NCBI GenBank assembly: GCA_025642065.1
Contig: JAODUP010000428.1
Coordinates: 1-64,000 of the forward strand
DNA length: 64,000 nt
Origin: Paralvinella palmiformis
Taxonomy: Eukaryota; Annelida; Polychaeta; Terebellida; Alvinellidae
Direction: 5' to 3'
Positions 5,899 to 48,673 of the stretch are shown here, piece after piece (position 1 is the stretch's first letter; every line of letters begins with the position of its first letter). The position numbers and the translations under genes are program-made. Below the pieces are notes generated by a model. It made no database searches. It worked only from the letters and a program-made list of their open reading frames with translations, and was not told where the DNA came from.

Positions 5899-6043
5899 GT
5901 ATATATCTTTATATATTATACATATTTTAATACAATTTATACATGAAAAGTACCTAAATTGAGTTACGCTAGAGCTGTATGTTAATTAAACTATAAAAAG
6001 TCGTCACACATACCATGACAAATCCCTATGCTCTATATTTAAT

Positions 6044-6988
6044 GAAATAATAAAATAATAGAATAAAGCTGGATTATTACTCCCATATTTAGAAGTGGCA
6101 AGAAAGAAATGGTCGAGTACTATTACCCAATAAAATTGTTTCCTGTATTTTCTAAATTACTAGAAAATGAATCGCTGAAAAATTCCTAAGAAATTTCCTA
6201 GATAATTAGAATATCATATATCATTACCAATATGGCTTCCTCCCAAAAGCCTTACTTTTGTTGCAGATATAAACAGTTAAGTTGAGGCAATTTCTAAATC
6301 TTTCAGACGTTATATTTAAATAAACCAAGTCTGGAATGTTCTACATCACAAAGGACTCTGGTAATGTCCTTCAAGCATATTGACAAATCACAGAACAATG
6401 AACAATGTTGATTGTTGTTGTAGTTTCCATAACGGGTTTGTTTTATGGGGTGGGGTTGTTAGTCCCACGCCCAACTCCCATCGTGGAGGACCAGATCCTG
6501 GGTTTCATCTTGTCCCTCCTCTGAGACCTGCCCAACTTGGTTAAAGCTGCCAGGGGCTTAAACATCGCCGGTTTAGCTTCAAGAGTCCTTGAGAAACACA
6601 AGCCCCATCACCATCGGCAAGGTACCAGAACAAAACAGTGAACACTCCAATATAATCATGTTTTAACAATGTCTAGTCAGTGGAGTCAACTTTAATACTG
6701 ATTTGGTAGTGTTCCATACTCGAAAGTTTAATTATTTGCTGATGTTAGCGTGATTGGCTGTCAGGATTTATGAAAAAGGCGTCATATACATCAACACCGA
6801 TCCAACAAAGAAGCTGTCATGTCCGATTTTATTAAGAAAATATACTTATGATGGCTAGCTGTTGCGTTGTTATTTACAATGTTACCATAACAACCAGTTA
6901 CGTGAATAATTTGACAACTCCATGGTTCTTTATATTCGGACCTTTTCTGACGTACCGAATATAATCTAAGTCTGTTAATAAGTTTTTG
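6044..6988 (-). repeat. Right arm of the inverted repeat, interrupted by a ~520-bp insertion
   Basis: This arm is the reverse complement of 1-475. Homology runs 6044-6403, breaks, and resumes at about 6928-6988. The interrupting 6404-6927 segment has no counterpart on the left, where 32 unrelated bases sit instead. The arms enclose about 5.6 kb. High arm identity suggests recent origin or homogenisation. Confidence 0.85.
6404..6927. repeat. Segment inserted in, or substituted into, the right inverted-repeat arm
   Basis: The segment is less AT-rich than its surroundings around 6425-6640, where it has a GGGGTGGGG run, a CCCACGCCCAACTCCC block and a GTTGTTGTTG-rich edge. This suggests a short interspersed element, but no tRNA-like box A/B pair or terminal inverted repeat was recognised. 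The remaining 6640-6927 is AT-rich and unassigned. Which arm has the ancestral state cannot be told from the window. Confidence 0.4.
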
Positions 6989-11974: not shown

Positions 11975-13667
11975 TGGCTCATTTCCCAGTTAAGAATTTT
12001 ACTCTCTAGATAGCGCTAAATACTTTCTCTTGCGATTACAACTCATAGTATTCCTGACCTAGTCCGGAAAGAAGCCATTTAACCAATCAAAATCGATCAT
12101 ATGTAAAAAATTGTATTTCTCATATAATTTATTCATGTCACCAGAAATGACTTCTTGCTATTATTACGGGAATAGTCTACATAAGAGAACATTAAGTTTT
12201 TAACAATAGTTCGACTAGTTTGAAAAACAAAATCATATCAAGAATTTTAGCCTTCAGTTTACCTATGATAGGTAATTTTTGTATGTGCGTTCGGCTGATT
12301 GATCATCAAGACTAGATAAGGCTTGTTAATAACCCGCCAGTTATACTCGCATTTATCAAAACTTCTTACTATTGACTACTGATTTCAGATAGAATATTAA
12401 TATTCAAGCCGTTAGAAAATGTACTTCAATTTTGTTTGATAAGCATGACATTGATATTGACAAAGAATCAGAATTTGTAAACAAACGCGGGAATTAAGGC
12501 CACGTGGTAATTCTTAAAAAGAAAATCCAGTCTTTAAGACTCCGTTTCTCTACGATCGAGATATTTACTGTTATGTGGCAGTCAAATAAATGAGAAATAA
12601 AATCAAACATTGAACTCCACATGTATTTTGGGTGCATCTGATTAGAAACAATTACAAATAATTACCGATTTTATTTAATCTTGTTTTTATTATGTTTTCA
12701 ACGTAGTTAGAAAATTACGTTAACTGGAAACTTGGCCACACGAAGGATAATAAACTATTTTGTGATATCCAATATTAGACGTCTGGTCGCAGACATTGGA
12801 TATTGTTGCTTCAATAGAAATTCAATTAAATGTTCACTACAAGAAAAAAAATTAATACCGTGATTGACCCATGATTACTTATTAAATTGATAATCTCCAG
12901 TATATTTAATTGGTTTGAAACTATCTTTATCTTCTAGAGGGTTGGTGTAAATAACATGACGTCCTCGTTGAACAGTATCCTGACTGACTAGTAGCCCACT
13001 GGACAGTATACTAGGTCCAGTTTTCGTTCATTATTTTCATAACTCATAATATGACTTATCGATGATAACATATTTCAAGTAACGAATACATCAAAGGATC
13101 ATAGAAAATAAACAATAGTTTTGACAAAATGACGGAACAGTTTGATAAATAACAAACGCGTCCATTTGGGTAAATATCTCAGACACCAGTATTTGTAGAA
13201 AATCAAATTTATCTCTAAAGTTTCATCAGCAAAGAATCTTGTCTGGAAGCGGGGTTTTTATTTTTCGCACAAATTTTCAAATTGGATCAGGCCACAGTTC
13301 CAAATCTTTCAGAGTAGATACTCAACCGGTATGATAATGTTATTTGATACCTTAAGTGATAATGTAGAGATATAGAAAGTTCATCACGCACCAACTTTAC
13401 ATCTTTGGAATACTGTTGTATGAGAAGTGATATGCTCCGGTTACTTAAGACAATATATAACCAGTTAAAGAGTGATAAATGGTTCAAATTCGATTCCATT
13501 TCGTGTCTAAAATATTTCCGACGACGCGAAATAGTTTAAAGTCAAGACTTGAACTATGACTATAATCCAAGACAGGAAATATGAACCCGCAGTACATTTG
13601 TATTTGGATTTCATTCGCTTCCTGATATCTCACCACGAACGGGGATAACACATGAAAGTATGTATAC
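11975..13667. other. Intergenic AT-rich sequence
   Basis: No gene or transposon was recognised. A small interrupted inverted repeat (ATATCCAAT...ATTGGATAT with an inner GTCTG/CAGAC) lies at about 12766-12799. Confidence 0.45.
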
Positions 13668-14199
13668 TGATATCCAGAGTAATCTACCTGAATATCACAC
13701 TTCAAACGGATATTCAGTGTGGCCTCCTGAATATCACAGTTCACATTGATATTCAGAGTGATCTACCTGAATATCACAGTTCACACTCATATCAAAAGTG
13801 TTCTACCTGAATATCACAGTTCAAAGTGATATTCAGGAAGGTCTCCCTGAATATCACAGTTCACATTCATATCCAAAGTGATCTACCTGAATATCACAGT
13901 TCAAAGTGATATTCAGGGTGGCCTCCCTGAATATCACAGTTCACACTGATATTCAGAGTGATCTACTTGAATATTACAGTTCACACTGATATTCAAGGTG
14001 GTTTTCATGAATATCAGAGTTCACATTCATATCCAGAGTGATCTACCTGAATATCGCAGTTCACACTGATATTCAGAGTGGTCTCCCTGAATATCACAGT
14101 TCACACTCATATCCAGAGTGATCTACCTGAAAGTCACAATTCACACTGATATTCAGGGTTCTCCCCCGGAATATCACAGTTCACACTCATATATAAAGT
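13668..14199. repeat. 40-bp tandem satellite, about 13 units, hairpin-forming
   Basis: The unit carries CTGAATATCA, about ten bases, then TGATATTCAG. These two 10-mers are exact reverse complements, so each unit is a potential 10-bp stem with a short loop. Adjacent units alternate between a GTGATCTACCTGAA type and a GTGGYCTCCCTGAA type, giving a higher-order period near 80 bp. Units differ by one to several bases, so the array is not freshly amplified. Open frames crossing it are artefacts of the repeat. Confidence 0.9.
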
Positions 14200-15246
14200 T
14201 CACTGAGTGACTGATATTATCTCATACACTAATCATTCAGGTAATAGTCCACTACAGAAAGATGGAGTCGAGTTACATTATAGATAACGATTGTTATAAT
14301 ATTTGTGTCCTGAGAGGATATTTTACGACGTTGAATTTTACTTCATTGAGATAACGATCAAAGGTTTGAAAACATAGTTTAATTTAACTGATGCACGTGT
14401 TATTTGTGTATGTATTACATACTTATTTCATAACAAGGATCACACATCAGCATTATGCTAATCTAATTTTATTAAATATTATAACATTATAATCTTTCAA
14501 CTGGACATGAATATTTATAATTATGATGCCAAATAGAAGGACAACGAAAAACAACAATATTTACATTGTGTTATTTATCATATAAAACATTTATACAAAT
14601 GCGTCCAATCTTTAACATTGTTATGTATTATACTAAAAAAGCAGATAACAACAACAAAACCACAACAACAACAAAAATAACAACAACAACAACTATATAG
14701 CAAATACTATATATTAAATAATGCAGTTGGTAATAAAATGATTTTATTAAGATACTGAACTAAAAAAGAGACCCTTTTTATACACCGCGAATTCAAATGA
14801 TGAATTTTACTATGAATTTAATGATGTCTTTAGTAAATTAAGTAAAACGAGTGAGTCTCATCAGTCAGATCATAGGAAAATATTCGTCAAGTTTCTCACA
14901 GATTACTTCATGTTTTATGTTTACAAAGTTAAAAACTTACATCATAAGTCAGCAGGCAGCGAGCGAATAACAATATTTTAAATTCAATTTATTGATTGGG
15001 ATCAACGATTATCTGCGACATCATCAGCTGGGACATCTGTTGGCTTTAATTTCGGCAAAATAGAAACAATAAAGATATATTTATATATTATCAAACGCGT
15101 AATCGTACTTTCTATGGCGAGAGTCGAACAGGGTACTCAGATCGACACACGAATACAAATCACGTGACTCCTCTTAATCTTCTCATTCGGGAACTGCATA
15201 TTCGCGTGATCTCCGTCAACTCTAATTTAATCTGAGAACACTTCCA
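14200..15246. other. Intergenic sequence downstream of the left GPCR
   Basis: AT-rich, with an ACAACA-rich patch at 14645-14695. A minus-strand AATAAA (TTTATT at 14988-14993) lies about 250 bp past the receptor stop and is a possible poly(A) signal. No other feature is seen. Confidence 0.4.
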
Positions 15247-16191
15247 TCACGGATGTGCATCAATGGTGTTGGAGCGGCACGAAAACTTGGCTCGGAGCTG
15301 TCGACGAAACTTCTTACCGCTAACGCAATAAAGGACGAAGTTGGTTGTGTTATTTAGATAGAGCAGCATGTTAAATATCGGCCATAGGACGTAACTGCTG
15401 AAACAACAGCCGTAAGCCGAGTCGAAGCTATCAGTGTCCGACAGGTAGATGGTGATGGGTAATGTACACAGAAGAAACACCACACAGACTGTCAATAACA
15501 TGATGGTAACGCTTTGTACTTTAGTTTCTTGCGAAGAACCTCGTTTTCGTTTCTGGTCTAAGATCTTCACCACAACAGCGATATTGCAAGTGATCATCAC
15601 CGAAAATGGAAAAATCGAGGCCAAGGTCATGTCCAACCAACCCCACAATTTCATCCGGAAAGCTAGGAAATCCGGATTCAGCGCACACACGTTACCCGCT
15701 TCTCCTCGAATCAATGCCTGACTCCAGAACAGGTGGGCGTTGGCTGCAAAAAGAAATCCGCTGAAGCTAGCCATCTGGATCACAGCAAATCGACGAGTAA
15801 AGAAATGTTTTGCTTTCATGGGACACCAGGCAGCTCCCACTCTCTCTATGGATACACAAGTGAGGAGCCAAGCCTCTGTTTGTATGAGGTAATACATTAG
15901 AAACATATGTAACTTACAGATCCATGACGACTCATTGCGGATGTCGAGTCCATATCGGGCGAGAATCCACTGTCTGGATAATCCCGTGTACAGTATGACC
16001 GTATCCAGAAAGGCTAAATAGGTCAAATATATGCTGATGGTATGTTTCTTCCGTTGTTTTTGCAGCATTACGATCCCGACGAGGATGTTGCCAATTGTTC
16101 CCAGTATGACGAGAGTTGGTGAGCCATATATCCAGACATTAGCTGCGAACGATTGGTAGTTCTCTTTTTCTAAACAACAAGAATTATTCAT
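15247..16191 (-). CDS. Rhodopsin-class (class A) orphan GPCR, left copy, 314 aa, intronless
   Basis: A seven-transmembrane receptor predicted for the plasma membrane. Visible landmarks are TM1 with the conserved N (GTIGNILVG, N35), TM2 with D63 (LAFLD), Cys92 and Cys169 for the extracellular disulfide, ERV in place of DRY at 116-118 after TM3, P195 in TM5, TLP in TM6 and NNTTNFVLY in place of NPxxY at TM7 (280-288). The N-terminus has an NNS glycosylation site at residue 2 and no signal peptide. The gene is one uninterrupted frame. Its partner at 23292-24287 is identical for residues 1-193 and differs at only 212, 214, 257 and 194 up to residue 292, after which the tails diverge. Ligand unknown; it most resembles the broad FMRFamide/peptide-receptor-like group, and a lineage-specific chemosensory role is possible but is inference. 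Confidence 0.9.
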   Translation of the reverse strand: MNNSCCLEKENYQSFAANVWIYGSPTLVILGTIGNILVGIVMLQKQRKKHTISIYLTYLAFLDTVILYTGLSRQWILARYGLDIRNESSWICKLHMFLMYYLIQTEAWLLTCVSIERVGAAWCPMKAKHFFTRRFAVIQMASFSGFLFAANAHLFWSQALIRGEAGNVCALNPDFLAFRMKLWGWLDMTLASIFPFSVMITCNIAVVVKILDQKRKRGSSQETKVQSVTIMLLTVCVVFLLCTLPITIYLSDTDSFDSAYGCCFSSYVLWPIFNMLLYLNNTTNFVLYCVSGKKFRRQLRAKFSCRSNTIDAHP

Positions 16192-16490
16192 ATCGAAATA
16201 TTATGCGTTTCTTTATTTTGTAACTCGTGAGTGAGAGTGTGTTATTGAAGAACGTTCTACTGCGTAACGTCTAAGTGAAGATTCTTTGATGGACTTAGGA
16301 TGTCTGAACTAAACACACCAATGTGGAATACAATGATATATTATAAATACAGTCATTACAGGAGAGATATCAGCAGCTATCTCTGTGCTTGGCATCTACC
16401 ACATTAAGATATAGGAGACTCCACACTGAGGAAAGTATACACCATACTGTAAGCTATATATAACTATACTCAACACACTCATCTGTACCT
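16192..16490 (-). promoter_or_regulatory. Conserved 5' flank and putative promoter of the left GPCR
   Basis: This flank is almost identical to the mirror-image flank of the right receptor (about 22995-23291). It contains a TATA-like TTATAAATA in gene orientation (around 16336-16349), about 150 bases before the ATG. Transcription start and factors are inferred only from position. Confidence 0.35.
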
Positions 16491-16627
16491 CAAACCCTTT
16501 TATTGGCAAAAGTTAATAAAGCAGTGATATATCAAGTAGGCTAGTACATCAGATATTTTGAGTGACAGGAATAATGATCTTTTAAAGTAATTATTTGCTG
16601 ACCCTTTTCAGAGAATTTTAATAAAAT

Positions 16628-17333
16628 GACTTTTATCAGCATTAATAGTCACTCTATCACTTATATCTTGCAATTTATACTCGTTTTCTCCCTACGTCCC
16701 TCGTTAATCATAGCATCACACCATCAGACACAAGACGTAATATTGGTATTACATTTGATAGCGATTTTAATTTCAGAAAGATATTTCTCTGACACGCCGC
16801 TCCTGTTTCTATCATATTCGTGACCATCATCGTATTCGGCTCTGTATTTCTCTTTCAGTCGCCAAAACCATTGCACACAGTCTCCTCGATTTTCACACCC
16901 TGTCCCACTTCTGAAATCACTTCATTCGTTCCCTGTTCAATCTCATATCATTTTCAAACTCTGTGCCATTGCCTATAAAACTCTTTCTTCCGGAGACCCT
17001 ACGTACCTATTTTCCATGCTTTTTCTAACGCCCAAGCTCAGAGGGCTCCGTTAATCTGGTTTTCACTTGTTGTCTGTTCCCCGGTTTATAACTCATGCTG
17101 GGACTCGTGCTTTTTCAGTTGCTGTCCCTATACTTTGGAATTCACTCCCTGAACATGTTCAGTCATCAAATAGCATATTTTATTTCCGTCACCATTTGAA
17201 AACTCACCTTTTCAGACTTGCTTCCTAAGTTTCCACTCTATCTGGTCATTAGTTGATGAACTTTGCAATGTACTTAGATTATGATTTTGCCCAAGCCCTG
17301 TACTAGGTATGCCACTGACATCGACATCTTCGT
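16628..17333 (+). mobile_element. LINE 3'-end fragment inserted in the left GPCR arm
   Basis: Translation across frameshifts gives the C-terminal signature of many non-LTR retrotransposon reverse transcriptases: RNIGITFDSDFNF, then YHIRDHHRIRLCISLSVAKT, then CAIAYKTLSSGDPTYLF, then THAGTRAFSVAVPILWNSLP and HHLKTHLFRLAS before a stop. The right GPCR arm lacks this sequence, so it inserted after the duplication. It is 5'-truncated and dead. The clade is probably CR1/L2-like. Confidence 0.8.
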
Positions 17334-17430
17334 TATAAGTTTCTGTTTACATTTTGAACTAGACACCATGCGGCTAAATAATTATACAGCGGAATCGGCA
17401 TGCATGGTCAGTATTGGCATACAAAAAGTG

Positions 17431-18158
17431 ATATATATCAAAATGCACACATGTTGATGACATCAGTACACAACCCTGCTCGGCAGGACTTGAAAACGTG
17501 AAAACGGACATAACCTACGTGCAGTTAAAAAATCGAGGTGGTATAATTTAAAAAACTCAGAGCTTTGATAAACTTAAAATATAAAATGACTAGAATTTGT
17601 CTTACCTACAGTTTTAATAAAGAATTGTATGTTTTGGGGAAGGATGGAAATAAGTAAAGAATCACCTGAAACTGACGGACATCTTATTTGTTTCGTCGTA
17701 ATTTATTTCTCACAGAAGTTGCGTTTTATAATAAATTGCTATAGGACCTTGCACAGAAACTCAGATTATAATGGTCAAATGTTGTGTTATGACGAGTCAG
17801 TTGTCCGCCAAATTGTACACTGTGAGTGTGTCATCGTGTGGCTAATACTACAAACATCTGTATCCATGAATCAATCTCCAACGTGAAAATAGCACTGTGT
17901 GTGTGTGTGAATTCAAAGATGAAACAACCTTCAGATATGCCCATGCCGAGATCCGAACAAGGGTGGTAGTGATCTGTGATTCAACACGCTACCACTAGAC
18001 GAAGGAGGCGCGCCCGACATCAGGTGACATAATTTAATGTTTTCATTGCACTATCCAATCTGGGTAATGGAACAGTGAGCCTAGTCAGAATTTGTTGGTT
18101 ATTTCTCTACTGCTGTCGGTCTGGTTGGTTTTTCTCCAGTCATCTCTACATCCATACA
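17431..18158. other. Left part of the GPCR spacer
   Basis: Unassigned sequence at 17431-17911 and 18013-18158. It contains an 85-codon frame (17629-17886) with no recognisable family, considered chance, and one truncated SINE at 17912-18012. Confidence 0.4.
17912..18012 (-). repeat. tRNA-derived SINE, truncated
   Basis: The minus strand reads GGTAGCGTGTTGAATCACAG (box A region) followed by a decayed box B and ...GGCATATCTGAAGG, matching the 5' half of the main SINE family. The conserved tail is missing. Confidence 0.7.
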
Positions 18159-19113
18159 ATGGACAAAATCTTCTTTGACAGAGGTTCGAAGGGCACAAAT
18201 TACTAGTTTACATTACTCCAAAACGGCAGTGCACAAAGGCTATCATCAAATTCAATGCTGACGTCATGCTTCATGATAGGGAAAGGTCTGGTCGTCCAAG
18301 GAAGACTACCCCCGAGGAAGACCGCTTAATGAGATGGTAATGCGCTGGCCAAAGAGCTGCTGCAAGAAAGCCCGTCCTATTGTAAGCTTAAAAGGTACAG
18401 CAATAAGTTCTTGCACCGTTCTGAGACGTCTCAGCAAAGAACTGAATTCTCACAGACCAGCACTGAAGCCATACATGACACCAGTGATGAAGAAAAAGAT
18501 ACTGGACTTGGCCAGATGTCATCGCCATTACACTCTCGCTGAGTGGAAGAAAGTGTTGTTTTCTGACGAATGTACCATGTAGCAATCTGTACCTCGCCAC
18601 ACGCACATTAGATGGCCATTAGGTAACCGGCTTTTGACAAGAAATATATTCTAACCACAATGAAACACCCGCCGAGCCAAATGATTTGGGGTGCCATGGT
18701 GCCGCTGGTCTGTGTTTCATTCCGTCTAAAACTACTATGAATGGACCGAGGTACGTGGAATTGCTCAAAATATAAGCCAAAACTACACATGCACGTCCAC
18801 GGCTGTACGATCTTCATGCACGATGGCGCTCCGTATCACCCATCAAAGGTAGTCACTAACCCCCTAAAGAAAACCAAGATCTCTGTAATGGAATGGCCCG
18901 AGAACAGCACATATATCAACCTAGTTAAGAATATGTGGACTACTGTCAAGGTAAGGTGGCATACAAGCGTCAAGCGCTGACAACCTGAGGTAAGCAATCA
19001 AGGAAAGTTGGAACACTGAAGTCACCCAGGAGTACTGCGAATCTCTGGTATCCAGCATGCCGTCTCACATCCAAACAGTCATTAACAGCAACGAAGGACA
19101 TACTAAATACTAA
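18159..19113 (+). pseudogene. Decayed Tc1/mariner transposase
   Basis: Pieces in different frames follow the Tc1 order: a helix-turn-helix linker (ERSGRPRKTTPEEDRL), first catalytic Asp in EWKKVLFSDECT, KHPPSQMIWGAM, second Asp in FMHDGAPYHPSK, and WPENSTYINLVKNMW where functional enzymes have SPDLNPIENLW. The third catalytic Glu is therefore replaced by Lys. The last frame ends in the family-typical GHTKY plus stop. Several frameshifts and stops make it non-functional. No convincing terminal inverted repeats were found. It lies in the spacer of the GPCR palindrome. Confidence 0.85.
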
Positions 19114-19666
19114 AAAGTAGTGACGCTGACACTTTTAGATTTCGTCAGGTTTCAAATCGTGTTGTATTTTCCTTCTGGTAAAAAACCACAGTTTTGTCAA
19201 TTTTATTTTAAAACTTCTGTCTAGTCTTAAACTTTTTATATGACTCTATATATAATTTATATATGATGATGCACTAAGTTACTGTGTTGATGACGTAATT
19301 TTCGATTATTGAGGATTGTGAATGTATTGTCGATAAGTAATTTTTATATTTTACAGATTGATGATTATTCTGTAAGATGAAGATATAGAGTTGAGGTTCA
19401 ACATTTCTCGGCTCATAACACATGGGTGCTTGACCATGTCGGATGATGCTGCCGTCTCGCTTGATTGAACCTATGACGTTAAAAGAATCTAGATCAAATA
19501 ATGGCGTAGAATCCTGCGAACTATTCAACCAGGATCAGAAGCAGAGTGAGCTAGCTAACTTTTTAAGTTGAACTCATTCTATTCCTGGATTTGAAAACAC
19601 ACAATTAATCGTCATAGCGTTTTTGACCTTAACATATCTCAGCCGTATATTGTTCAGTATCAGGCG

Positions 19667-19854
19667 TGATGATGATTGGTGTTTTACGGCCACTTTTGTG
19701 CACATGGTAGGCTAAATAGGCCGGGCGACCTCCGAAGGTAATGAAGCGAAGTGAAAGATGAAACACCCTTCAGATATGCCCACGCCAAGATTCGAACTCA
19801 GTTGGTAGTGATATGTGCTCCAACGCGCTACCAACTAGACCATGGATGCGCTCC
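19667..19854 (-). repeat. Full-length tRNA-derived SINE with target-site duplication
   Basis: The minus strand has a tRNA-like head (GGTCTAGTTGGTAGCGCG for box A, GAGTTCGAATCTTGG for box B) and the shared tail with TTTAGCCTACCATGTGCAC and AAAGTGGCCGTAAAA. Flanks AGTATCAGGC and AATATCAGGC form a 10-bp target-site duplication with one mismatch. Confidence 0.85.
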
Positions 19855-20867
19855 AATATCAGGCAGGAGACAGATGCATTAAGATAATGAGGCTTCTTGG
19901 TTCCAAATGGAACTAACTATTTGCTAGTAGTTGATTATTTGAACAATAAATAATATTTATCGGTGTAAGCAATCTTGAACAGGTGAGTTTTTAGAACAGC
20001 AGATTTAAACTTTATAAGAGACGACATGTTTCTAATTTATACTGGCAACCTGTTCCATCAACTTGGGGGGGGGGGGCGGGAACTGCGCCAATCAACACAC
20101 GCTGGCCATATCGCTAGAGCCGAGACACAGGTAATAACTTGTAGTAATATCTGATTGGATGGCCTGAGTTTTCGGGATGGAGTTCACACGGGTATTCAGG
20201 TGCTATGTTATTGGTAGATTTATAAGTTGTTAACAAAAATATTGAAATCGATACACTGTCTAACATTTGCCAGCGTTACATCACATGATCAGCTTTATCC
20301 TAGATTACCGGGTGGTAATAGTTTGACTATAACATATGTGGATAATAGGACTCCTTTAAATTTCCTACATGCCTACATTGATGGGCATATATATTCTCTT
20401 TCTCGTTGTTTACGATCTAAACACAAATAGCATCCACACGTTTTGTCGTTGTACAGAAGATTGACTGAATTGAATTATGTGTGGGCACTTTAGGTGAAGA
20501 CGGAAGACAACATCAAACCCTCTATAACTATAAACTCCTAGCATTCTGGATACTCACTTCCATATGCTCGTATTTCTTGTAGTTTGAAGACGATGTAATA
20601 TGATTGTATTCTTATTCCCTGACCACCCGCTGAACTGTCCTTTTGGTAATTAATCAGTTTTCGGATATATAATGGCTCAATTAATATTAATTTGTTTAAT
20701 GAGACTGATTATTGCCTGGTGAATTGAGTATTATGCTTCCGTACTCTAATAATCAAAACGGTCTTGCGGTCGAACAACAACAATTCTCTGCCATTAACTT
20801 GCCTTGGTCTAGTTCCTGAATGCACGTAACGTCAGATACGTTTAGCAGATTTATCAACGCTGTAGGG

Positions 20868-21020
20868 GCGCCTCCCTGACTTAAGTGGTAGCGCGGAGGA
20901 TCACAGATCTACAGCACCTGGGATCAACATCCCGTAGGGCTATGTCAGAAGCATGTTTCATCTTTCATTTCACTTCATTACCTCTGAGGGTCGCTCGGCC
21001 CATTTAGCCTACCTTGTTAT
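20868..21020 (+). repeat. tRNA-derived SINE, second head type
   Basis: The head carries AGATCTACAGCACCTGGGAT and GGGCTATGTCAGAAG rather than the CACTACCACCTGAG head of the main type. The tail (TTTCATCTTTCATTTCAC, GTCGCTCGGCCCATTTAGCC) is shared with it. It is cut short after TTTAGCCTACCTTG. Confidence 0.75.
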
Positions 21021-21074
21021 GAACGCACTATCAACTTATTGGTATTCTCATTTTCACTTCCCAATCCATTATGA

Positions 21075-21345
21075 TAATAATAGCCGAAATGGCAGGTTTT
21101 TTTTACGTGGCTGGCAATCTCAAATGAGGGAGACCCAAATGGTCTGCAATTTATAGCTTCCTCACGGAGACTAATTCTAAATAAATTTAGAATAAATGGC
21201 ACGTTCGGCGGAGAAAACCTTGCCAGTTGGATGAAAAACTCCTCATACTATAGTGCCACGGCCGAGGCGCGAACCTGCGACCTCCCGTACAGAATGACCT
21301 AGCCATAGGTAAATAGTCTCACGCTCTACCCATGTGGCCGAAGAG
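21075..21345 (-). repeat. Unrelated tRNA-derived SINE
   Basis: The minus strand starts CGGCCACATGGGTAGAGCG (box A) and has GCAGGTTCGCGCCTC (box B), followed by a tail different from the main family. No target duplication was identified. Confidence 0.6.
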
Positions 21346-21483
21346 GCGTTTAGTGAAATAAATAGAATTTCTCCCCCATCGTGATATGCCTTCAATCAAT
21401 TAGCTCCCGTTATGGTAAGAAATATATATTTAAGTTATGCTAATTGTGTATAAAGTCTTTAAGGGCTATTACACCGCACAATC

Positions 21484-21641
21484 GCCTCCGTAGTCCAACT
21501 GGCAGCACGTTGGATCAGAGATCACTACCAACTGAGTTCGAATCTCGGCGTGAGCATATCTGAGGGGTGTTTCATCTTTCACTTCGGCCAATTTAGCCTA
21601 CCATGTGCACAAAAGTGGCCGTAAAATACCAATCATCACCA
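21484..21641 (+). repeat. tRNA-derived SINE with target-site duplication
   Basis: Main-type head (CCAACTGGCAGCACGTTGGA, GAGTTCGAATCTCGG) and a tail with a short internal deletion. Flanks ACACCGCACAATC and ACACCGCACGATC are a 13-bp duplication with one mismatch, placing both ends precisely. Confidence 0.85.
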
Positions 21642-22387
21642 TCACACCGCACGATCATCAGTTGGACTGAACGGTATCAAACCTTATGATATCGAAAAAT
21701 GGACTTATAATGTCATGTCTATTGCAATGAGTTATTGTAAATCCTGCTTCACACCTTGGCTGATGAGCGTCAACGTAGCTCTGCACGACAACACATTCTG
21801 AACAATGACCAAGGGATATTTGAATACAAATTGTTTATTATAATTGTGGAAACTTAAAAATAACGCCAAGATGTTTCATTTCACAGAAATCCACTTTTTA
21901 AATACCATTAAAACTATTTCATTGCAAAATATATTACTGGCGAATTGGCTCAGGAAATTTGGAGTTCAGTGGCAATTGCACCCGGTGTCGAAAATGCTTC
22001 GGTGGCGAACGCCCCGGAGCCTAAACCGGAAAAGCCCAAGTTCGAAACATGTCTATGACCACGGAGAATTTTGTCGTTGAAAACCATCTTCGATGGCAAG
22101 GTGCATCTATAACGATTGACTGGATATAGCTGATTATAGTTGATCATTTTGATAGGTAGTTCCTGGGGACTGTGGCTGCTCAAAAATGTTTCATAGTGTT
22201 TTATATGTGTTGTCTGTAATTATTGTGCCTTTTCCGTTTACATTGGTTCAAAATGGAAATCCGAAATGGGTTTGATTTTATTATTAAGTTAAATACAAAT
22301 ATTAATGTATTCACACACACGCGCGCACACACACACGCACACACTGCTAACTCCACATTGAAGATTCATTCGTTGATACAAATGTAA
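21642..22387. other. Spacer sequence with no recognised feature
   Basis: Contains a CA/CG-rich microsatellite at about 22311-22345 and AT-rich DNA. Two overlapping frames near 21844-22183 lie on opposite strands and neither resembles a protein family. Confidence 0.4.
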
Positions 22388-22480
22388 ATGTTGCTGTTTT
22401 ACGGCCACCTTTGTGCACAAGGTAAGCTAAATGGGCCGAGCGACCTCCAAAGGTAATGAGTGAAAAATGAAACATCCTTC
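22388..22480 (-). repeat. SINE tail fragment
   Basis: Only the conserved tail is present on the minus strand (CCTTTGGAGGTCGCTCGGCC, CATTTAGCTTACCTTGTGC). The tRNA-like head is missing. Confidence 0.7.
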
Positions 22481-22939
22481 TGACATATTCTTTGCAAACA
22501 CAAAATCATAATGCACGCATCACAATAAATGTCCGTATTCATAGGTTCAAAACTCGAGGCGCAGCCAGTTCAAAGTTACGTTTTGCCCCTACCGGAAGTC
22601 TGCGCTGTTTGGTCATGGCGGCCCAATCAAACACCACTGAGTGTTCATTCTAGTTTTCTTTTAGGTCAATGATTTTAACTGGCTATATGTGTAGCGTCAC
22701 CACTTTCTGTATGCCAACACTGAGCATGCCTATTCCATTGTATAATTAATTAGCCACGTGGTGTCCAGCTCAATATAATCTGTGTAAACACAAAGTTATT
22801 ATTAAAATTCTCTGAAAAGAGTCACCGAAGGATTACTTTAAATGATCATTATTCCTGTGACTCAAAAGATCTGCTGTATGAGCCCACCTAGTACATCACT
22901 GTTCTATTAACTTTGGTCAATAAAAGTGCTTGAACGGGC

Positions 22940-22941
<2 letters not shown>

Positions 22942-22992
<51 letters not shown>

Positions 22993-22993
22993 G
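22942..22993. repeat. (GT)n(GA)n microsatellite in the right GPCR upstream region
   Basis: About 18 GT and 7-8 GA units lie roughly 300 bp before the right receptor ATG. The left receptor has only a short GT stretch here, so the two promoters differ in this purine/pyrimidine-alternating tract. Confidence 0.9.
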
Positions 22994-22994
22994 G

Positions 22995-23291
22995 CGCACG
23001 CGCGTTAGCTTGAGTATAGTTATATATAGCTTACAGTATGGTGTATACTTTCCTCAGTGTGGAGTCTCCTATATCTTAATGTGGTTGATGCCAAGCACAG
23101 AGATAGCTGCTGATATCTCTCCTGTAATGACTGTATTTATAATATATCATTGTATTCCACATTGGTGTGTTTAGTTCAGACATCCTAAGTCCATCAAAGA
23201 ATCTTCACTTAGACGTTACGCAGTAGAACGTTCTTCAATAACACACTCTCACTCACGAGTTACAAAATAAAGAAGCGCATAATATTTCGAT
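22995..23291 (+). promoter_or_regulatory. Conserved 5' flank and putative promoter of the right GPCR
   Basis: It contains a TATA-like TATTTATAATATA at 23134-23146 and an initiator-like TTCAGAC about 40 bases downstream. Both are preserved in the left arm. Activity is inferred. Confidence 0.35.
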
Positions 23292-24287
23292 ATGAATAAT
23301 TCTTGTTGTTTAGAAAAAGAGAACTACCAATCGTTCGCAGCTAATGTCTGGATATATGGCTCACCAACTCTCGTCATACTGGGAACAATTGGCAACATCC
23401 TCGTCGGGATCGTAATGCTGCAAAAACAACGGAAGAAACATACCATCAGCATATATTTGACCTATTTAGCCTTTCTGGATACGGTCATACTGTACACGGG
23501 ATTATCCAGACAATGGATTCTCGCCCGATATGGACTCGACATCCGCAATGAGTCGTCATGGATCTGTAAGTTACATATGTTTCTAATGTATTACCTCATA
23601 CAAACAGAGGCTTGGCTCCTCACTTGTGTATCCATAGAGAGAGTGGGAGCTGCCTGGTGTCCCATGAAAGCAAAACATTTCTTTACTCGTCGATTTGCTG
23701 TGATCCAGATGGCTAGCTTCAGCGGATTTCTTTTTGCAGCCAACGCCCACCTGTTCTGGAGTCAGGCATTGATTCGAGGAGAAGCGGGTAACGTGTGTGC
23801 GCTGAATCCGGATTTCCTAGCTTTCCGGATGAAATTGTGGGGTTGGTTGGACATGACCTTGGCCTCGATTCTGCCATTTTCGGTGATGATCACTTGCAAT
23901 ATCGCTGTTGTGGTGAAGATCTTAAACCAGCAACGAAAACGAGGTTCTTCGCAAGAAACTAAAGTACAAAGCGTTACCATCATGTTATTGACAGTCTGTG
24001 TGGTGTTTCTTCTGTGTACATTACCCATCACCATCTACCTGTCAGACACTGATAGCTTCGAGTCGGCTTACGGCTGTTGTTTCAGCAGTTACGTCCTATG
24101 GCCGATATTTAACATGCTGCTCTATCTAAATAACACAACCAACTTCGTCCTTTATTGCGTCAGCGGTACAAATTTTCGTCAACAGCTCCGAGCCATGTTG
24201 GTCTGTCGAAGTAATGCCGTCTCCGCGCTACATTCATGTAAGTCGTCCCAAATTGCGACGATACAGAACCACACAGAACGTTTATAA
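23292..24287 (+). CDS. Rhodopsin-class (class A) orphan GPCR, right copy, 331 aa, intronless
   Basis: Same receptor as the left copy, with intact seven-helix landmarks: N35 in TM1, D63 in TM2, Cys92/Cys169, ERV at 116-118, P195, TLP in TM6 and NFVLY in TM7. It differs in the third intracellular loop (212 N for D, 214 Q for K), at 194 (L for F) and 257 (E for D). From residue 293 its cytoplasmic tail is unrelated in detail and 17 residues longer, ending NHTERL. The gene is a single exon transcribed away from its twin. The extra-long tail could change coupling or trafficking, which is inference. Ligand unknown. Confidence 0.9.
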   Translation: MNNSCCLEKENYQSFAANVWIYGSPTLVILGTIGNILVGIVMLQKQRKKHTISIYLTYLAFLDTVILYTGLSRQWILARYGLDIRNESSWICKLHMFLMYYLIQTEAWLLTCVSIERVGAAWCPMKAKHFFTRRFAVIQMASFSGFLFAANAHLFWSQALIRGEAGNVCALNPDFLAFRMKLWGWLDMTLASILPFSVMITCNIAVVVKILNQQRKRGSSQETKVQSVTIMLLTVCVVFLLCTLPITIYLSDTDSFESAYGCCFSSYVLWPIFNMLLYLNNTTNFVLYCVSGTNFRQQLRAMLVCRSNAVSALHSCKSSQIATIQNHTERL

Positions 24288-25105: not shown

Positions 25106-25235
25106 GCGCCTCCATGGTCTAGCGTTAGCGTGCTGGACCACCCGTATTCGAATCTCGAATCTGAAGGTCTTTCACTTCGTCTCATTACCTTTGGAAGTCG
25201 CTCGGCCCATTTAGCCTACCTTGTGCACAAAAGTG
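25106..25235 (+). repeat. tRNA-derived SINE, internally deleted
   Basis: Starts GCGCCTCCATGGTCTAGCG and joins early to GAATCTGAAGG, so much of the region after box B is missing. The tail GTCGCTCGGCCCATTTAGCC and GTGCACAAAAGTG is present. Confidence 0.75.
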
Positions 25236-25662
25236 CCCAATACTTGTAGGATTTGTTGTATCGTTAATTAACTGCCGCAAGCAATTGGTTTTATTTGCAT
25301 TTATTAATTTGGGTTACTTTGGGTTATAAGATAATTGCAATTATGAATTTGGATGAAAATACTTTTGGACTGGTTATACAACAATTGCAAATATCATTTC
25401 TTTTGTCGAGGAATATGGTATAGCTTCCATTATATAATATGTACAGAATGTCATGGTATAAGCATGAACATGTACCTTGTAATAATAGGTTTGTGTGTGT
25501 GTGTGTGTGTGTGTAATTGCGTGCGTGCATGTGTGTGTGTGCACTTTATTGCTACTCTGTGCTTATTACAATTATAACTTTTGTGAATTCGTTGCTATTT
25601 TATCCTAACTAGTTATTACAATTATATACATACTGATATAAACTGTATGAGTTTTATGTATG

Positions 25663-25721: not shown

Positions 25722-25924
25722 GAGAATAAATCTCTACTTTGTGTAAGCTTAGTATGAATTCATATAGCGATCTCTTGTATTGTACCTCACTACAGTGACC
25801 ACCTGCCTACAGTAAACACCCTACAAAAGTCTAACGAGGTTTAACAGTATACCTAGTTATGGAGTTGTTGTTGTTGTTGTTGGTTGTTGTTGTTATTGGT
25901 TGTCGTTGTTGTTGTGGGGTTCAA

Positions 25925-30960: not shown

Positions 30961-31126
30961 TCATGATGATGATTGATCATGTTAGGCTAAATGGGTCTAG
31001 CGACCTCCAAAGCTTAATGAACTCAAAGATGAAACACCCTTCAGCTATGCCCACGCCGAGATTCGAACTCAGATGGTAGTGGTTTATGGTCCAACGCGCT
31101 ACCACTTAGACCACAGAAGCGCCGAG
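30961..31126 (-). repeat. tRNA-derived SINE
   Basis: The minus strand has GGTCTAAGTGGTAGCGCGTT, box B GAGTTCGAATCTCGGCG and GGCATAGCTGAAGGGTGTTT. The tail is internally deleted and lacks the GTGCACAAAAGTGG part. Confidence 0.8.
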
Positions 31127-35559: not shown

Positions 35560-36990
35560 CTGCGCCTTATTCAACTTGATGGGCTCTAAGGCGCAGTTCT
35601 GCACTCGCTATAAGCGGTTTGTCAGAGTGAGGGGGGTATAATATAACAATGCACTGCCATAGTCCAGTCCAGAAATAACAGGACTTGCTTATAGAATTCA
35701 CCTGCTTCTCCATTCCTTGAGTATTATCTAATATATGCCCTAGATTTCTAACAGACATGGAAGAGTTGATATAACTGGGTCGTACCTTAATGTGAAGATT
35801 ATCAATTTTCTTTACATATTGTTTGGATGAGAAAACAATGAATTATGTCTTGTCCTTATTCAATTTCAGCATGTTGTTGTTCATCCAAGTACTTAAATGT
35901 CTTCAATACAAGCTTCTATTGAAGATGAAATATCATCCCATTTATCACATAGCTTTCTAGTCATATACACTTGTGTATCATCGGCATTAAGATGATATTT
36001 AATATTATGCCATTTAATAATTTCACCAACTGGTTTTGTATACATACAGTAATTCTTTGGTCCTAAAACGGATCCTTGTGGTACACCAAAAAGAAGACAT
36101 ATATTTGGTGATGTCGTTTTGTCCAAATTAATGCTTTTTGGTTGATTCCAAAGGAGAATTCTGAACGCTAGAGTATAATTGGATGATCGATTACGTCGAA
36201 AACTGCAGATAAAGCATAATTAATGCAGTCATGGATCCTTCATCAAGAGCCTCAACAATGTCACTGTGGTGTTTCAATAGAGAGGTTTCTGTTGAATGAT
36301 TTCTACGATAAGCAGACTGATAAATATCATTAAGATCATTGTGCTCTACTTGTTCTTCTATACGCCTTGCTACTACCTTTTCAATAAGTGTAGAGATGAA
36401 AGGAAGGTTAGAGATAGGACGATAATTCTTCATCTCTTCCTTATTCAACCCAGTTCTCTTAAGCAGCGGGGTTATGGTGGCTCGTTTCAAACATAAAGGC
36501 ATCACTGACTCATCCATTGACAATGGCTGTTATCAGCGGCAGAAGTTAATCCACACATTTCTTCAAAAGCTACGTGGGCAGTGGATCCAAATAAAATGAC
36601 TTGTTCGGAGACTTGATTATTATCTCCTTGACCTCAATCTCAGATGTCGGTCGAAACATTTCGAGCAACTTTCTTTGAAACATAACATCTCCATCCATGG
36701 AAATATTGCAGGTAATATTTGAGATATCCTAAATGATCTTATTCCCGATGATTGTTGTTTTCCTCACGAAATAATTGCTGAACTTGTCCGCCAGGAGTTC
36801 AGTAGAGGTAAAATGTGGAAGATTTACATTTGAGTTACTTCCCATCAAGTTCGTAGTTAATTTGAAGAGTTTCTTTTGATCTTTTCCATATTCCTCTATC
36901 TTTGTGGAATAGAAACACTTCTTCTCCTCGAAGGGTAGTATATTCGTTTTTCTACAGTTGTTGAACCGTTTATCTGCACACAATGTCGGT
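35560..36990 (-). pseudogene. Decayed LINE reverse transcriptase (copy 2)
   Basis: Minus-strand fragments in order are: a linker with YSTKIEEYGKDQKKLFKLTT (36983-36729); RT fingers with KRATITPLLKRTGLN, KNYRPISNLPFIS and YQSAYRRNHSTETSLLKHHS (36523-36191); FGVPQGSVLGP and KYHLNADDTQVYM (36126-35893); and SVRNLGHILD and LDYGSALLYYTP near the end. The catalytic YADD reads NADD, and stops and frameshifts separate the pieces. Domain order and the GVPQGSVLGP box fit the CR1/L2/Rex1 group. Confidence 0.88.
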
Positions 36991-37327: not shown

Positions 37328-37891
37328 TGAGGAGCCGGGTGGCTGATACAAGGTTTTCTGCCTTAATATTAATCAAAATAAATTACAGTAAACACATCGA
37401 TTCCAAACAAATTGTAGCTAGGTTAATTAAAGAACACCCTAGACGTTTATTCAAGGCCAGCCTTTTCGACTAACTAATGAAGATTTACATGAGGTAATAA
37501 ATATTTTAAACATCACTGTTTCTTTCTCATAAATATGTACCTTGAAATAAATGGTCAGTCTGCTTATTAAATATTTTAGTGACATAATGCACAATATATT
37601 AACATTATATGTTTACTTTAAAATTATATTTACATAAAATACACAAAACATATTATATATACACTTATACATGATATACATAGATTTTTTACATTATATA
37701 CATATTTATATTATATACATAAACCCATTTTCATTATGTACACTTGCACTTTATCGTCATGCTATATACACTTAAAAACTCCGAATATAACAAATACATT
37801 TAAACTAAACCAATTCGTACAAGAGAGAAGCTGCTCTTAGCAGTTGATGTGTTAACTTCTCGCCATATTCTTGCTATATTCAGAGTTTGTG

Positions 37892-38079
37892 GGGCGCCTC
37901 CGTGGTTCAGTTGGTAGCGCGTTGGATCACACATCACTACCACCTGAGTTCGAATCTCGGCGAGGGCATATCTGAAGGGTGTTTCATCTTTGACTTCACT
38001 TCATTACCCATGGAGCTCGCTCGGCCCCTTTTTAGCCTACCACGTGCACAAAAGTGGCCGTAAAATATCAATCATTTAC
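37892..38079 (+). repeat. Full-length tRNA-derived SINE with target-site duplication
   Basis: Head TGGTTCAGTTGGTAGCGCG, box B GAGTTCGAATCTCGGCG and a complete tail. Flanks TTCAGAGTTTGTG (37879-37891) and TTCAGAATTTGTG (38080-38092) are a 13-bp duplication with one mismatch. There is no poly(A); the copy ends at ...AAAATATCAATCATT. Confidence 0.9.
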
Positions 38080-43258: not shown

Positions 43259-46200
43259 ATGTATTCACTGTACAGACAGCTACATCCTCCAACGGGCATT
43301 GACCATTGTCTCTACTGTAGATTTGCCAATCCAGATGAAGAGAATCTCGTCATAGCAGGTGTTAATCAAATACATGTCTACAGGCTGAATGAAGATCTTG
43401 AGGTTAGCATCCTAGAACTAAATCACCGAACAGGTCTTCATATGCATTGCTTATAGATCTAATTGTGTGGAAATGAACCTTAACCTTTTAATTCTTTACC
43501 ATGTAAAATGATCACAATTTAAGTGGTAGACCAAGATGTTCTGAAGTAGCACGTTTTATTAAAATTTACTGATAAATCATTATTGAAAAAAGAAAGCACT
43601 GTCATTGTTGTAACCTTGGTAGTATTTTCAGCTGTAAAAACAAAATGTTTTATAAACCTGTTTACTGTGAATAGTTTCCCATTCATTGCAGGTCAGTGTA
43701 AAGCCAAGAGATGACAAAGCAGGTGAAAAGTCACAAGGTAAATATGATTTAAAATCTTATGATATTGGTCCATTGGTCATAATTTTTAGGTATAACAGGG
43801 CTTCTACTTAATGAAGGTATATTCATAGCTTTATTTAATACTAAACAAATCAATCATTTATAGGAATCAGAATATATATTTTGGGGATGAAAGCTTTCTG
43901 GTTTTTACAGGATTTCTGTTTTTCCAGAGCTAAAGATAATGTTATTGGGAACGGGTTAGGTTAGTGCTTTGGAAAAGACATGTTTTATCTCCACTCAAAT
44001 AGTCTCAGATTGTCCTAAAATACACAAATCCCCACTTCCCTTGGTGCATGGGACTCACTTTCCTCTGCTATTTCCTTTACATCTTTTCACAGGGTTTTCA
44101 AATGACATTGACATGTCTGGTGTGGGTGTGTGAAATAATAGACTTCTAAAATAACATAAGGCAACCATAAAAAATTCTACAAGACATTTTGATCACATAC
44201 ATGGTCTTTATACAACTTAGGAATTCATTAGTGTAACTGATTGTACTTGTAGTGCTTTATAGCTCCGTTTTTTGTTAGGAAGGACACCATCATCATCTTT
44301 CCCCTAATTGCTGGTTCCAAGTTCATAATTCCACTACTAGCACTACTGTATCATTGTGCAGGTTACTAAAATGAGGTAGCGCTGAGTGTCTATTTGTCAG
44401 TGAGTCATTAAACTTGATTTGCTTGATCAGTTCATGAGCAGCTTTACCTAGACTTGAACATTCATGATCATGAAGCATTTATTTGCCCGCATGATGTCTG
44501 TGTATTTCAACGGAACAATAAATGGACAGCTGGCTGACTTTTATCTGTCTGCAGTAAAATTGTTTAAATACTGTAACTACATACAATTTCACGAGATTCT
44601 TATTTCTGCAAAATTCGCGATGTCGCTGACCTTACAAAAATGTAATATGCGAATATAAGTCTCGTTTGTGTGATTCATGAGCGAAGTTCGTCATTTACCT
44701 GTTTATAGTACACACTCGCTATCAACCATATATTTAATCATTTACAGCCCACATTTACTATTACTTCTAAATATTAATGCTGCACACAGCCACTGTTAAA
44801 GTTTTTTGTTCTGACATATTCATGTAAAGGAAATTAAAACAAAATTGCTACAGCTTCAATATATCCAATTTATATATATATAATTTAAACCTCAAGTAAT
44901 CATATTTCAAGCAATTATTGAACACATGTTGTTGACATGCCTATACACTGGTTTTATCATTGATGAATAAATATATATATATTTCTGTGTTCTTGCTATG
45001 ATAAAACATACAATAAAAACATATCTTTGGGCAGTCACCCTGCACGAATATAAAGCTCTGTGTATTGGCTAACAGTGGGGATTTGTGAATTTAAGAACAC
45101 ATGAAATTATCTGTAATTACAGTAATTATGGTGTTACAGTGAATATTGGCTTGAATCAAACATCTTACTGGTCTAGACATTACTGAAGTTTTTCACAGAC
45201 CAGTGGGTGCCTTCGTGGTCTAACTGGTAGTGTTGAACTCTAGACCACTGCCACCTGAGTTCGAATCTCGGCATGGGCATATCTGACGGGTGTTTCAACT
45301 TTGACTTCATTTCATTACCTTTGGAGGTCGCTCGGCCCATTTAGCCTACCATATGCACAAAAGTGGCCGTAAAACATCAATCATCATTCACCATCTTTCC
45401 ACGGACCAGTAATGGCACAAACCAGTCAGTCCATATGTAATGCCATCATCCATAAAAACAAATTACTGACTTTTTCAAGTGGTCACCTTTTGTATTAATG
45501 ATCTGAAATGAGGGACACAAATGCTGTTTTATATTCTATTCTATAGTGATGTGTATTTGTTAAACAAATAATGCAGGACAGCAAATAAATATATTTTTCT
45601 AGTCATTAGTATTTTCAGCAAAAGAAAACCATTTGTGAGCTGGTAAATTTTTGTCATTACTAGCACCAGTAAAACATGTGATTAAGGTCTGGCCCTGATT
45701 AATTGTGAACATAGTAATATATTTTAGCTAAAAAAAATGTATTTTGAATAAAAAATTTAATCCATTTAATATGAAATAAACACAAAACATATAATATTTA
45801 ATAATAATAATCCATTGTTTATTATTCTGAAAATATTTTAAACGGTATTCAGATAAAAGTATGCCATGACACTATTAAAAATATATCTATATGTTATATT
45901 ATTGCACATAAAATTCACACATATTTGTATGCTTTATTTTTAAAAATAGGAAGAAATACGAGTTTATGTGTGCATGTGCAATCCCATGTCTGTGATCAAT
46001 AGATACCTTATACATAAAGGATTATTGCATTCATTTCAGATGCTAAAGCAAAGAAGTGTCGCCTGGAATGTATTGCCTCTTATCAGTTATTTGGTAATAT
46101 TATGTCTATGGCAAGTGTTCGTCTGGCAGGATCACAGACTGATGCTTTGGTCATCAGTATCAAAGATGCTAAGGTAACATCAAATCATTTAGTATCAATG

Positions 46201-48673
46201 TTAATACTATAAATGCATTGTAAAGGTAGAGTAAAACCTGTTTTGTACTGCTGCTTTAGCTGTCCTTTAACATCAAATGGTTTTAGATTATATGACATTG
46301 TTTTGAGTGTAAAACAAATTTCAAGTGTGACTTGGATGGTATGATAAATCCTGAGATACACATATCTCTCATACATATATACTTGTGTATAAGGCAATCT
46401 CATATCTACAGTTATATAAGATGAGGCAGAACTGAAAGCTTTGCGTCCATATTTCTCACCGTCCATCCACCTCTTGGGATGTACATAACTCAACAAAATA
46501 CACCTCAACAAAAATGGTCTTTGAAGACAATATTTCTTTTAAAAATGACAACAGGTTTTAGTTACGTGCCATTGGGTATGCATACTAGCACTCCTGTAAC
46601 CAGGGTTGGCAGGTTTAACCCGCCGGCTGGGCTAAACCACCATTTTTGGGCTAAACTCTTGTTAAACTAACTTTTAGGCATAATGCACCATTAATTGATT
46701 CAAGAAAACCAACTAAATGCAAATTAAACCCTTAATAGTGGCCATATTTGATAACTCCTTTAACAGCAGCAAAATATTAAGAAATTATTCAGTGTATATA
46801 TTACTTTGAGAGACAATGAGATTATAATTCAACCTTTATTTTTCCCCTCTTTATATCCCTTTGGTTATATGGAAGCCACATATGAAATTAACAATGTGTA
46901 ACTATTTCACATGGGAATGTTACGAGATGGATTCATAGAAACTATTTTATACTATTTTCCTTTATATAATCCTACATAAAGAATAATTTTAGCAGATACC
47001 TTGATCACCTGCCACATAGAGGATTAAGTGAAGCCACTGGCACTGCATGGTCAACCACAGTTTGTTACAACCAGCATTATAGTCAAAGGCAGTGCACTTT
47101 CTAATTGTTTCTGGTTATCCAATTGCTGAATAGATCAATTCACCTCCTGGGCTTCAGAAGCCAATTTAACGAACAAGCTCAACCGATCATAGAACAGATC
47201 AATTGGTTTGGCCACCAACAAATAATAACATCTTATATAATTACTACAGTGTAATAGTGTCTAACTTGTTTGCGCCAACAGCGTAATATCTCAAATATTG
47301 GATGTTGATTGGTGCAAATTGTCAGCATCTTAACAACATCTTTAAAATTCATACCAAACAACTACTGTTAATGTGCATAAAATGTATGAATTTGTGAGTC
47401 ATTATACTGTATTCTGAGACAACCCCAGTTTAACCTGGGTTAAACTAGTAAAACTCCAACCCTGAATGTAACACAAAACTGACAAGAAAAACAGTAAGAA
47501 AAACAACATTCTTTATTCAGTATCTTTTACATCATAACATACCTGAAATATAAATAAAAATGAGATTGTTATGCTTTAGAATACTAGTTAAAGGCAAAAA
47601 TATAATAATAAATGTTTTTGAATACAAGTCGATACACAATGATGGATCAAATGAGGATATTATCACATGACAACTAAACATACCTATTATCGCTCAGCAG
47701 GCCTGACAGACAGTCTCCGAATATAGCCAATTTTTCCCCCAAAAAATGAAAAAAAATCATGTTTTAAGGACAAGTTTTTTTTAAATTTTAGGTTTTTTTG
47801 ATACAAAGTTGTGCATCTCCACTTCTTATTTTAAAATGGTGTTGTAGTATTGATAGTTACACAGGGTTTACTTTTACTTGAATTTGGGATCTCGGAACTG
47901 GTGCCCCATTTATGAAGGTTTGAGACGGTTGATTCTTGTTTTCACTTAGCCTAAGTGACCATTAGAACAGATTTTTTCTACACTCTCTCCAGAAGACATT
48001 TTACCTGAGGATGTGGTAGAAAATTATATGTACAAATTCACCTTGTTCTTGGATTGTGTGACTTCTACTACTTATAGATTGATAAATGGTTTTAAAATTG
48101 TATTTCTGTGTAAATTATTTCAGTTGTCAATAATTGAATACGATCCTAGTACACATGATGTGAAGACGTCATCGATGCATTATTTTGAGAATGATGATCT
48201 CAAGGTTAGTAAGATGGCTATTTTTATTACATTGAACACAACTTGCCATTCTCTTAGCATTTTAGTGTGACTATGGTAAAATGTGATAACAGTTCGAATT
48301 GGATGTCATGCCGTATTATGATTGATGGGTTGGGGACACCTAGTTTTAATTTTAGAAACAAAACACCAAACTGTTTGAATATACAATTTCTGTTGTCATG
48401 ATACACTGGGGCACCTACGTGGTCCAACTGGTCGCCTCTGTGGTCTAATGGTAGCATGTTGGACCACAGATCACTACCACCCGTGTTTGAATCTCAGAGT
48501 TGGCATATCCAAAGGGTGTTTTATCTTTGAGTTTGCTTCATTACCTTTGGAGGTCGCTCGGCCCATTTAGCCTACCATGTGCACAAAAGTGGCCGTAAAA
48601 CATAAATCATCATGTCATGATATACTAAAAACTACATTTATTTCATTATTTCTTTCTTTAGTTAAATAATGGG

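Follow-up and report, generated by a model that had tools for sequence, protein, structure and literature searches.

Near-identical receptor cores between diverged flanks: probable gene conversion in a head-to-head pair of class A GPCR genes

Introduction

How can two neighbouring genes be almost identical over most of their length, silent sites included, and still end in different tails and lie in flanks that are only moderately alike? This question is raised by two G protein-coupled receptor (GPCR) genes, A and B, which stand head-to-head in the 64,000-nt stretch of DNA analysed here (positions 1 to 64,000 of contig JAODUP010000428.1, called the window below). A preliminary description of the locus proposed an older inverted duplication with later gene conversion over the receptor core and promoter. 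Our analysis supports this proposal, as diverged homology was found on both sides of a core that is nearly identical even at silent sites, and old inverted paralogs with later interlocus gene conversion over about 1.2 kb are very probably the best explanation of the pattern.

Results

The start codons of A and B are 7100 nt apart, and both products cover the complete Pfam 7tm_1 profile (positions 1-260 of 260). Both are class A (rhodopsin-like) GPCRs, an assignment that rests on the profile and the predicted fold. The class A motifs are DRY and NPxxY, with variants known within the class, and the sequence here has ERV (116-118) and NFVLY (284-288), which are not the canonical forms. A tblastn search of the window, with both receptors as queries and E values up to 1, found no third receptor copy. 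Given the distance between the start codons, we did not consider a common short bidirectional promoter further.

The homogenised core is an inverted repeat of 1190 nt that consists of 282 nt of 5' flank and codons 1-302, and it contains 15 mismatches and no indels. Two of the mismatches are in the 5' flank, a single silent one is in codons 1-193, and the other 12 are in codons 194-302; among the conserved degenerate codons of 1-302, silent differences were found in 3 of 274. The near-identity described earlier, silent sites included, is thus real (with 2/282 differences in the 5' flank), but it extends over codons 1-302 and not 1-292 as first described, and codons 293-302 hold five clustered mismatches. 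Tract length was tested by shuffling alignment columns, which is not GENECONV itself. The longest identical run was 357, and the maximum in 10,000 shuffles was 237 (1460 homologous columns, 75 differences); the most similar 1190-column window had 14 differences, and the minimum in 5,000 shuffles was 46. The uneven divergence noted in the preliminary description was confirmed by these shuffles, which were never as similar as the observed core, and by sharp identity steps at 16473/23010 on the 5' side and at codon 302/303 on the 3' side.

A TATATATA stretch is located at 23021-23028 and 16455-16462, approximately eleven bases inward of the 5' edge of the core. To judge from this position, the converted tract may start near the core promoter.

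Beyond the 5' step the two arms continue as noncoding segments that are collinear and in the same order. The two longer segments together have 39 differences over 236 aligned sites (~83% identity), which agrees with the earlier estimate of about 80%, and a third short piece (17854-17898 and 22344-22385) is identical at 32 of 42 sites. With noncoding sites only, 2/282 differences in the 5' flank of the core against 39/236 in the outer segments gave a Fisher value of 2e-12, a test that uses the two longer segments and leaves out the third one (10/42 different). The insert found only in arm A resembles, in its translated frames, the C-terminal end of a LINE (long interspersed nuclear element) reverse transcriptase.

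On the 3' side the contrast lies within the coding sequence and can be compared with related proteins. The nearest relative found is the protein P0002, from the annelid Paralvinella palmiformis, which is 76-78% identical to A and B, and further sequences were found at 69% and ~50%. All relatives were compared at the protein level, in a collection clustered at 90%, where A and B presumably form one cluster (P0001, four member sequences, one contig). In codons 303-314 the residues conserved between A and B are C, R, S, N and A, and all five differ in codon, the serine pair being TCC/AGT; silent codon differences are thus 5/5 here against 3/274 in codons 1-302 (Fisher 4e-9). When residues 303-314 of B were scored in fixed register against the tails of A, P0002 and P0003, the scores were equalled by only 4, 12 and 3 of the 60,487 12-residue stretches without a stop in the window. 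The match of 15/21 nt from A's stop onward was equalled by 5 of 127,960 21-mers, both compared stretches counted among them, and the frame of A reads stop-WKCSQI where B has SCKSSQI. P0002 and P0003 terminate where A does, and B's longer tail seems to be due to reading on beyond an old stop. Because it resembles the family tails and because weak homology continues over the 21 nt from A's stop, the tail of B is, on its sequence, an old paralogous family tail and not breakpoint sequence. With residues 288-331 of B as query only the window's own cluster was matched (1 candidate), at a sensitivity limited to shared 5-residue words.

Table 1 Position of the receptor genes, their homologous parts and the repeats in the window
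Feature	Position	Strand	Remarks
GPCR gene A	15247-16191	-	single exon, 314 aa, P0002-like C-tail; open reading frame, Pfam 7tm_1 E 2.2e-21
GPCR gene B	23292-24287	+	single exon, 331 aa, longer and distinct C-tail; open reading frame, Pfam 7tm_1 E 7.9e-22
Core, arm A (282 nt 5' flank and codons 1-302)	15284-16473	-	98.7% over 1190 nt, ungapped
Core, arm B	23010-24199	+	98.7% over 1190 nt, ungapped
Most similar core part, A side (5' flank and codons 1-193)	15613-16473	-	3 mismatches/861 nt against B 23010-23870
A tail, codons 303-314	15250-15285	-	15/36 nt identical to B; 5/5 conserved residues differ in codon
B tail, codons 303-331 and stop, unconverted	24198-24287	+	passes A's stop position from codon 315
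A stop codon with the next 18 nt downstream	15229-15249	-	15/21 identical to coding B 24234-24254
Outer arm segment 1, A	16490-16624	-	113/135 identical to B 22799-22933
Outer arm segment 1, B	22799-22933	+	pairs with A 16490-16624
Outer arm segment 2, A	17326-17430	-	84/101 identical to B 22701-22808
Outer arm segment 2, B	22701-22808	+	pairs with A 17326-17430
59-nt stretch, mostly (GT)n(GA)n, B only	22951-23009	+	abuts 5' edge of core; alignment, sequence
Insert of ~0.7 kb, arm A only	16634-17325	+	gap between arm matches
Decayed Tc1-like transposon, spacer	18280-19100	+	18280-18579 Pfam HTH_Tnp_Tc3_2 E 2.2e-4, below cut-off
SINE-like copies	19672-19855, 45205-45384, 48430-48610, 61977-62137, 21483-21636, 30980-31123		
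SINE-like copies, continued	17907-18014, 20865-21013, 22391-22486, 25168-25238, 61117-61257		

The relatives also bear on the direction of copying. In residues 303-314, A matches P0002 at 10/12 positions and B at 4/12. A further, independent relative, P0020, is a 129-aa predicted protein on a 2,991-base contig that has W both at A's TGA stop and at another TGA later in the frame; its source is probably animal DNA translated under a TGA=W code. P0020 matches A at 80/84 positions in residues 231-314 and then at 42/45 through A's 3' flank with TGA as W, and over codons 231-302 its matches are 70/72 with B and 69/72 with A. Because P0020 bears the tail and 3' flank of A and matches both cores in 231-302, the 3' part of the tract appears to be A-type, with B as the probable recipient. 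On this reading, D257, R297 and K302 look like later changes in A, and T293 and N294 seem to have arisen in B. If the window also comes from P. palmiformis, P0002 would be a paralog and not an ortholog.

Comparison with P0002 showed a step inside the core as well. Identity to P0002 in residues 1-241 is 176/241 for A and 177/241 for B (73%), against 58/61 (95%) and 59/61 (97%) in residues 242-302, with Fisher values of 1e-4 and 2e-5, which are too small because the break at 242 was picked by the scan; the permutation values are more trustworthy. The change point of B-P0002 was at 242 (support 220-249, permutation p 0.001) and that of A-P0002 at 221 (permutation p 0.0035). Among the 28 pairs of eight sequences, only A-P0002, B-P0002 and, in the opposite sense, A-B (p 0.0099) had p < 0.05, and the change-point scan of P0002 against each of P0003 to P0007 gave no break (p 0.26 to 0.93). 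Derived changes in residues 1-241 were 22 on the lineage of B and 19 on that of P0002, against 1 and 0 in residues 242-302; divided at codon 194, they were 21 for B and 12 for P0002 in residues 1-193, and 2 and 7 in residues 194-302. A-P0003 had a milder step at 193/194, with a ratio of 1.44 (other pairs excluding P0002-A: 0.89 to 1.20). In trees of codons 1-193 and of codons 194-314, the only grouping resolved among A, B, P0002 and P0003 was A with B in codons 1-193. These comparisons suggest that the core itself is mosaic, by exchange in both directions, by a third lineage or by a mosaic relative.

The structure model of B, made from 24 sequences, had a mean predicted local distance difference test (pLDDT) score of 84.4 and showed a bundle of seven helices followed by helix 8 (293-304), with low confidence in the tail from residue 309 on; an earlier model from 10 sequences was discarded (mean pLDDT 58.5). 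The best Foldseek match of the model was the mu-opioid receptor (E 4.1e-12, TM 0.72/0.84), and among the 50 matches listed the nearest solved folds were opioid and somatostatin receptors with 16-24% identity; GPER1 was also near by sequence. Residues 1-193 are identical between A and B, and the amino-acid differences are located in transmembrane helix 5 (TM5; 194), at its end (212, 214), in the TM6-TM7 stretch (257), in helix 8 (293, 294, 297, 302) and in the tail. On this model the two receptors might share a ligand and differ in coupling, arrestin use or trafficking.

The spacer between A and B contains transposon remnants. We take all of 18280-19100 to be Tc1-like, the part beyond the weak Pfam match from the likeness of its translated frames. 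A family of repeats resembling short interspersed nuclear elements (SINEs), with a tRNA-like head GTTCGAATC, is present at 37890-38075 and in 11 more places (71-88% identical to the first copy), and five of the pieces lie within the spacer. We take the GTTCGAATC in the head to be B-box-like; ARAGORN reported no tRNA genes. Elsewhere in the window, a tandem array with a 40-nt period (13648-14279, ~630 nt) lies about 1 kb downstream of gene A, and an inverted pair (94-458 and 6040-6403, 365 nt, 97.5% identity) possibly represents two copies of a recent mobile element. Reverse transcriptase fragments were found at 35896-36529 on the minus strand (RVT_1 E 1.9e-5 and 0.0016, both below the Pfam cut-off). 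Open reading frame stretches at about 51598-51996 and 62624-62989 on the plus strand, which have no Pfam match, resemble exons of CPSF1 (cleavage and polyadenylation factor), and Pfam matches were found in 0 of the 7 other open reading frames of the window.

Discussion

Since uniform divergence is rejected and diverged homology lies on both sides of the core, the pattern argues for gene conversion and not for a simple recent duplication. Such a duplication, an inverted one of 1.2 kb with its breakpoints at the core edges and with B's tail taken from sequence beyond the breakpoint, would fit the outer 3' flanks without homology and the core without indels, but diverged noncoding homology continues past the 5' edge in the same order, and B has a family tail in which all 5 conserved residues use other codons; we consider this explanation very unlikely. 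An assembly or polishing artefact, in which one repeat was copied onto the other, might be suspected because near-identical inverted repeats are known to invite consensus errors, but the copies retain 15 differences, sharp edges and their own flanks, both within one window, and the single contig of cluster P0001, presumably that of the window, is 348,003 bases long; this origin is highly improbable. An old duplication that diverged evenly, with the receptor core held back by stronger purifying selection, would agree with the constraint that is expected on coding sequence and promoter. Selection on the protein is insufficient because silent sites (3/274) and the noncoding 5' flank (2/282) are near-identical too, and the 73% identity of P0002 in codons 1-241 means that the protein is not frozen, so we give this explanation hardly any credence. 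A retrocopy was rejected, because the shared part has the 5' flank and not the 3' end of A, which is the reverse of a usual retrocopy, and because B retains the family tail.

Some points weigh against conversion. Within codons 1-292 the rise in mismatches from 3/861 nt to 7/297 nt gave a change-point permutation p of 0.077, which is not significant alone; the change point became significant, at codon 290 (permutation p 0.0005), when codons 293-302 were added. The upstream arms (~83%) are much closer to each other than the tails, so the two sides do not go back to one event, and conversion between sequences as unlike as the tails is inefficient. The older homology on the 3' side is short, which limits the tail comparison to the 12 codons 303-314 plus the 21 nt that start at A's stop, and further out no homology was detected (15/60, 88/300), barring a simple AAC/GTT repeat at 14647-14699 and 25858-25913. 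With no homology found in these flanks, a rearrangement could account for some of the 3' edge.

The unequal divergence of the two sides can be read as repeated conversion over a shrinking zone. A and B would be old inverted paralogs, members of a type of class A GPCR that occurs in annelids, and interlocus gene conversion would have copied approximately 1.2 kb, from the 5' flank to helix 8, between them. Because conversion is inefficient between such unlike sequences, the core would have had to stay similar by repeated conversion, and because the upstream arms are far more alike than the tails, conversion probably ceased at the one edge earlier than at the other. The last conversion would probably have covered the 5' flank and codons 1-193. 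Upstream, the conversion zone may end at the microsatellite-rich heterology present only in B, and downstream where the C-tails became too unlike to pair. The outcome would be a nearly common transmembrane bundle and proximal upstream region with different intracellular tails.

Exchange in both directions would extend the conversion hypothesis and not contradict it. On the simplest reading of the step against P0002, both twins took their N-terminal part from another old lineage, possibly B's own, and the exchange was two-way; equally, P0002 may be the mosaic one. Under bidirectional exchange A and B would both be chimeras: the N-terminal part would stem from one old paralog (perhaps B) and the C-terminal part, as far as helix 8, from the other (A-type), while each gene retained its own tail. 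This is favoured by the confinement of the step at 241/242 to the pairs of A and B with P0002, together with the opposite step of A-B, and by derived changes that are balanced in 1-241 and near nil in 242-302, which points to a deeper N-terminal split and not to a speed-up of one lineage. Against it, P0003 is equidistant from P0002 and from A and B in both parts, as a mosaic P0002 would also allow; the uneven derived changes of B and P0002 in 1-193 and 194-302 leave room for uneven rates; A-P0003 steps mildly at 193/194 too; and the break between the tiers of A-B (codon 194) and that of P0002 are at different places. We regard bidirectional exchange as a serious possibility that falls somewhat short of an even chance. 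More doubtful is a wider picture in which the twins trade parts both ways, one giving the upstream region, the N-terminus and TM1 to about TM5/6 and the other TM6 to helix 8, each with its own C-tail. They would then form a set with the same sensor and switch and different wiring. Conversion would keep ligand recognition, and perhaps expression, the same in both, and the tails would diverge, one having become longer when the old stop was lost.

The locus is a two-sided case in which silent sites separate conversion from selection within a few codons, and it means that trees of such receptors are misleading if core and tail are joined. The two-way exchange, if true, would be a natural test of conversion that holds paralogous receptors to one ligand while their signalling tails diverge.

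Human Y-chromosome palindromes, to which the locus had been likened, are inverted copies kept alike by conversion, with much longer arms that are alike throughout. The likeness is valid for inverted copies kept alike, but here identity drops to ~83% outside 1.19 kb, the spacer of 6536 nt holds transposon remnants, and the homogenised part stops inside a gene, so the locus is not a long palindrome of the Y type. Vertebrate visual opsins have introns; unlike them, A and B are single-exon orphan receptors with a noncoding 5' flank within the tract and possibly a second direction of copying. For human FFAR3/GPR42 we know of no unrelated-looking tail such as that of B.

FFAR3/GPR42 are likewise duplicated GPCRs in which common variable sites suggest conversion, and the evidence there, unlike ours, is shared polymorphism (PMC4531286). 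In Tigriopus GOT1 paralogs high-divergence regions also persist beside converted ones, but these are enzyme genes studied with population data (PMC3728101). Conversion has also homogenised neighbouring inverted paralogs in Caenorhabditis, hsp16 and hsp70 among them, which are other genes in another phylum (PMC3966223). The Dlx pair of Capitella teleta, also an annelid, consists of closely linked inverted duplicates with mosaic conversion; these are tail-to-tail homeobox genes with mostly very short GENECONV tracts, whereas A and B are head-to-head with a 1.2 kb core (PMC3199776). The LWS opsins of livebearing fish are class A GPCR paralogs; in those of Jenynsia onca (P180/S180) only the 3' end of the receptor gene is reported to be unconverted, as here, and the authors invoke an inverted tandem arrangement as a help, which was confirmed in Poecilia and Xiphophorus and not in Jenynsia itself (PMC2732921). 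Conversion between inverted neighbours is already well described and the pair A and B is very probably a further case of it; the apparent mosaic of the core is what is new here.

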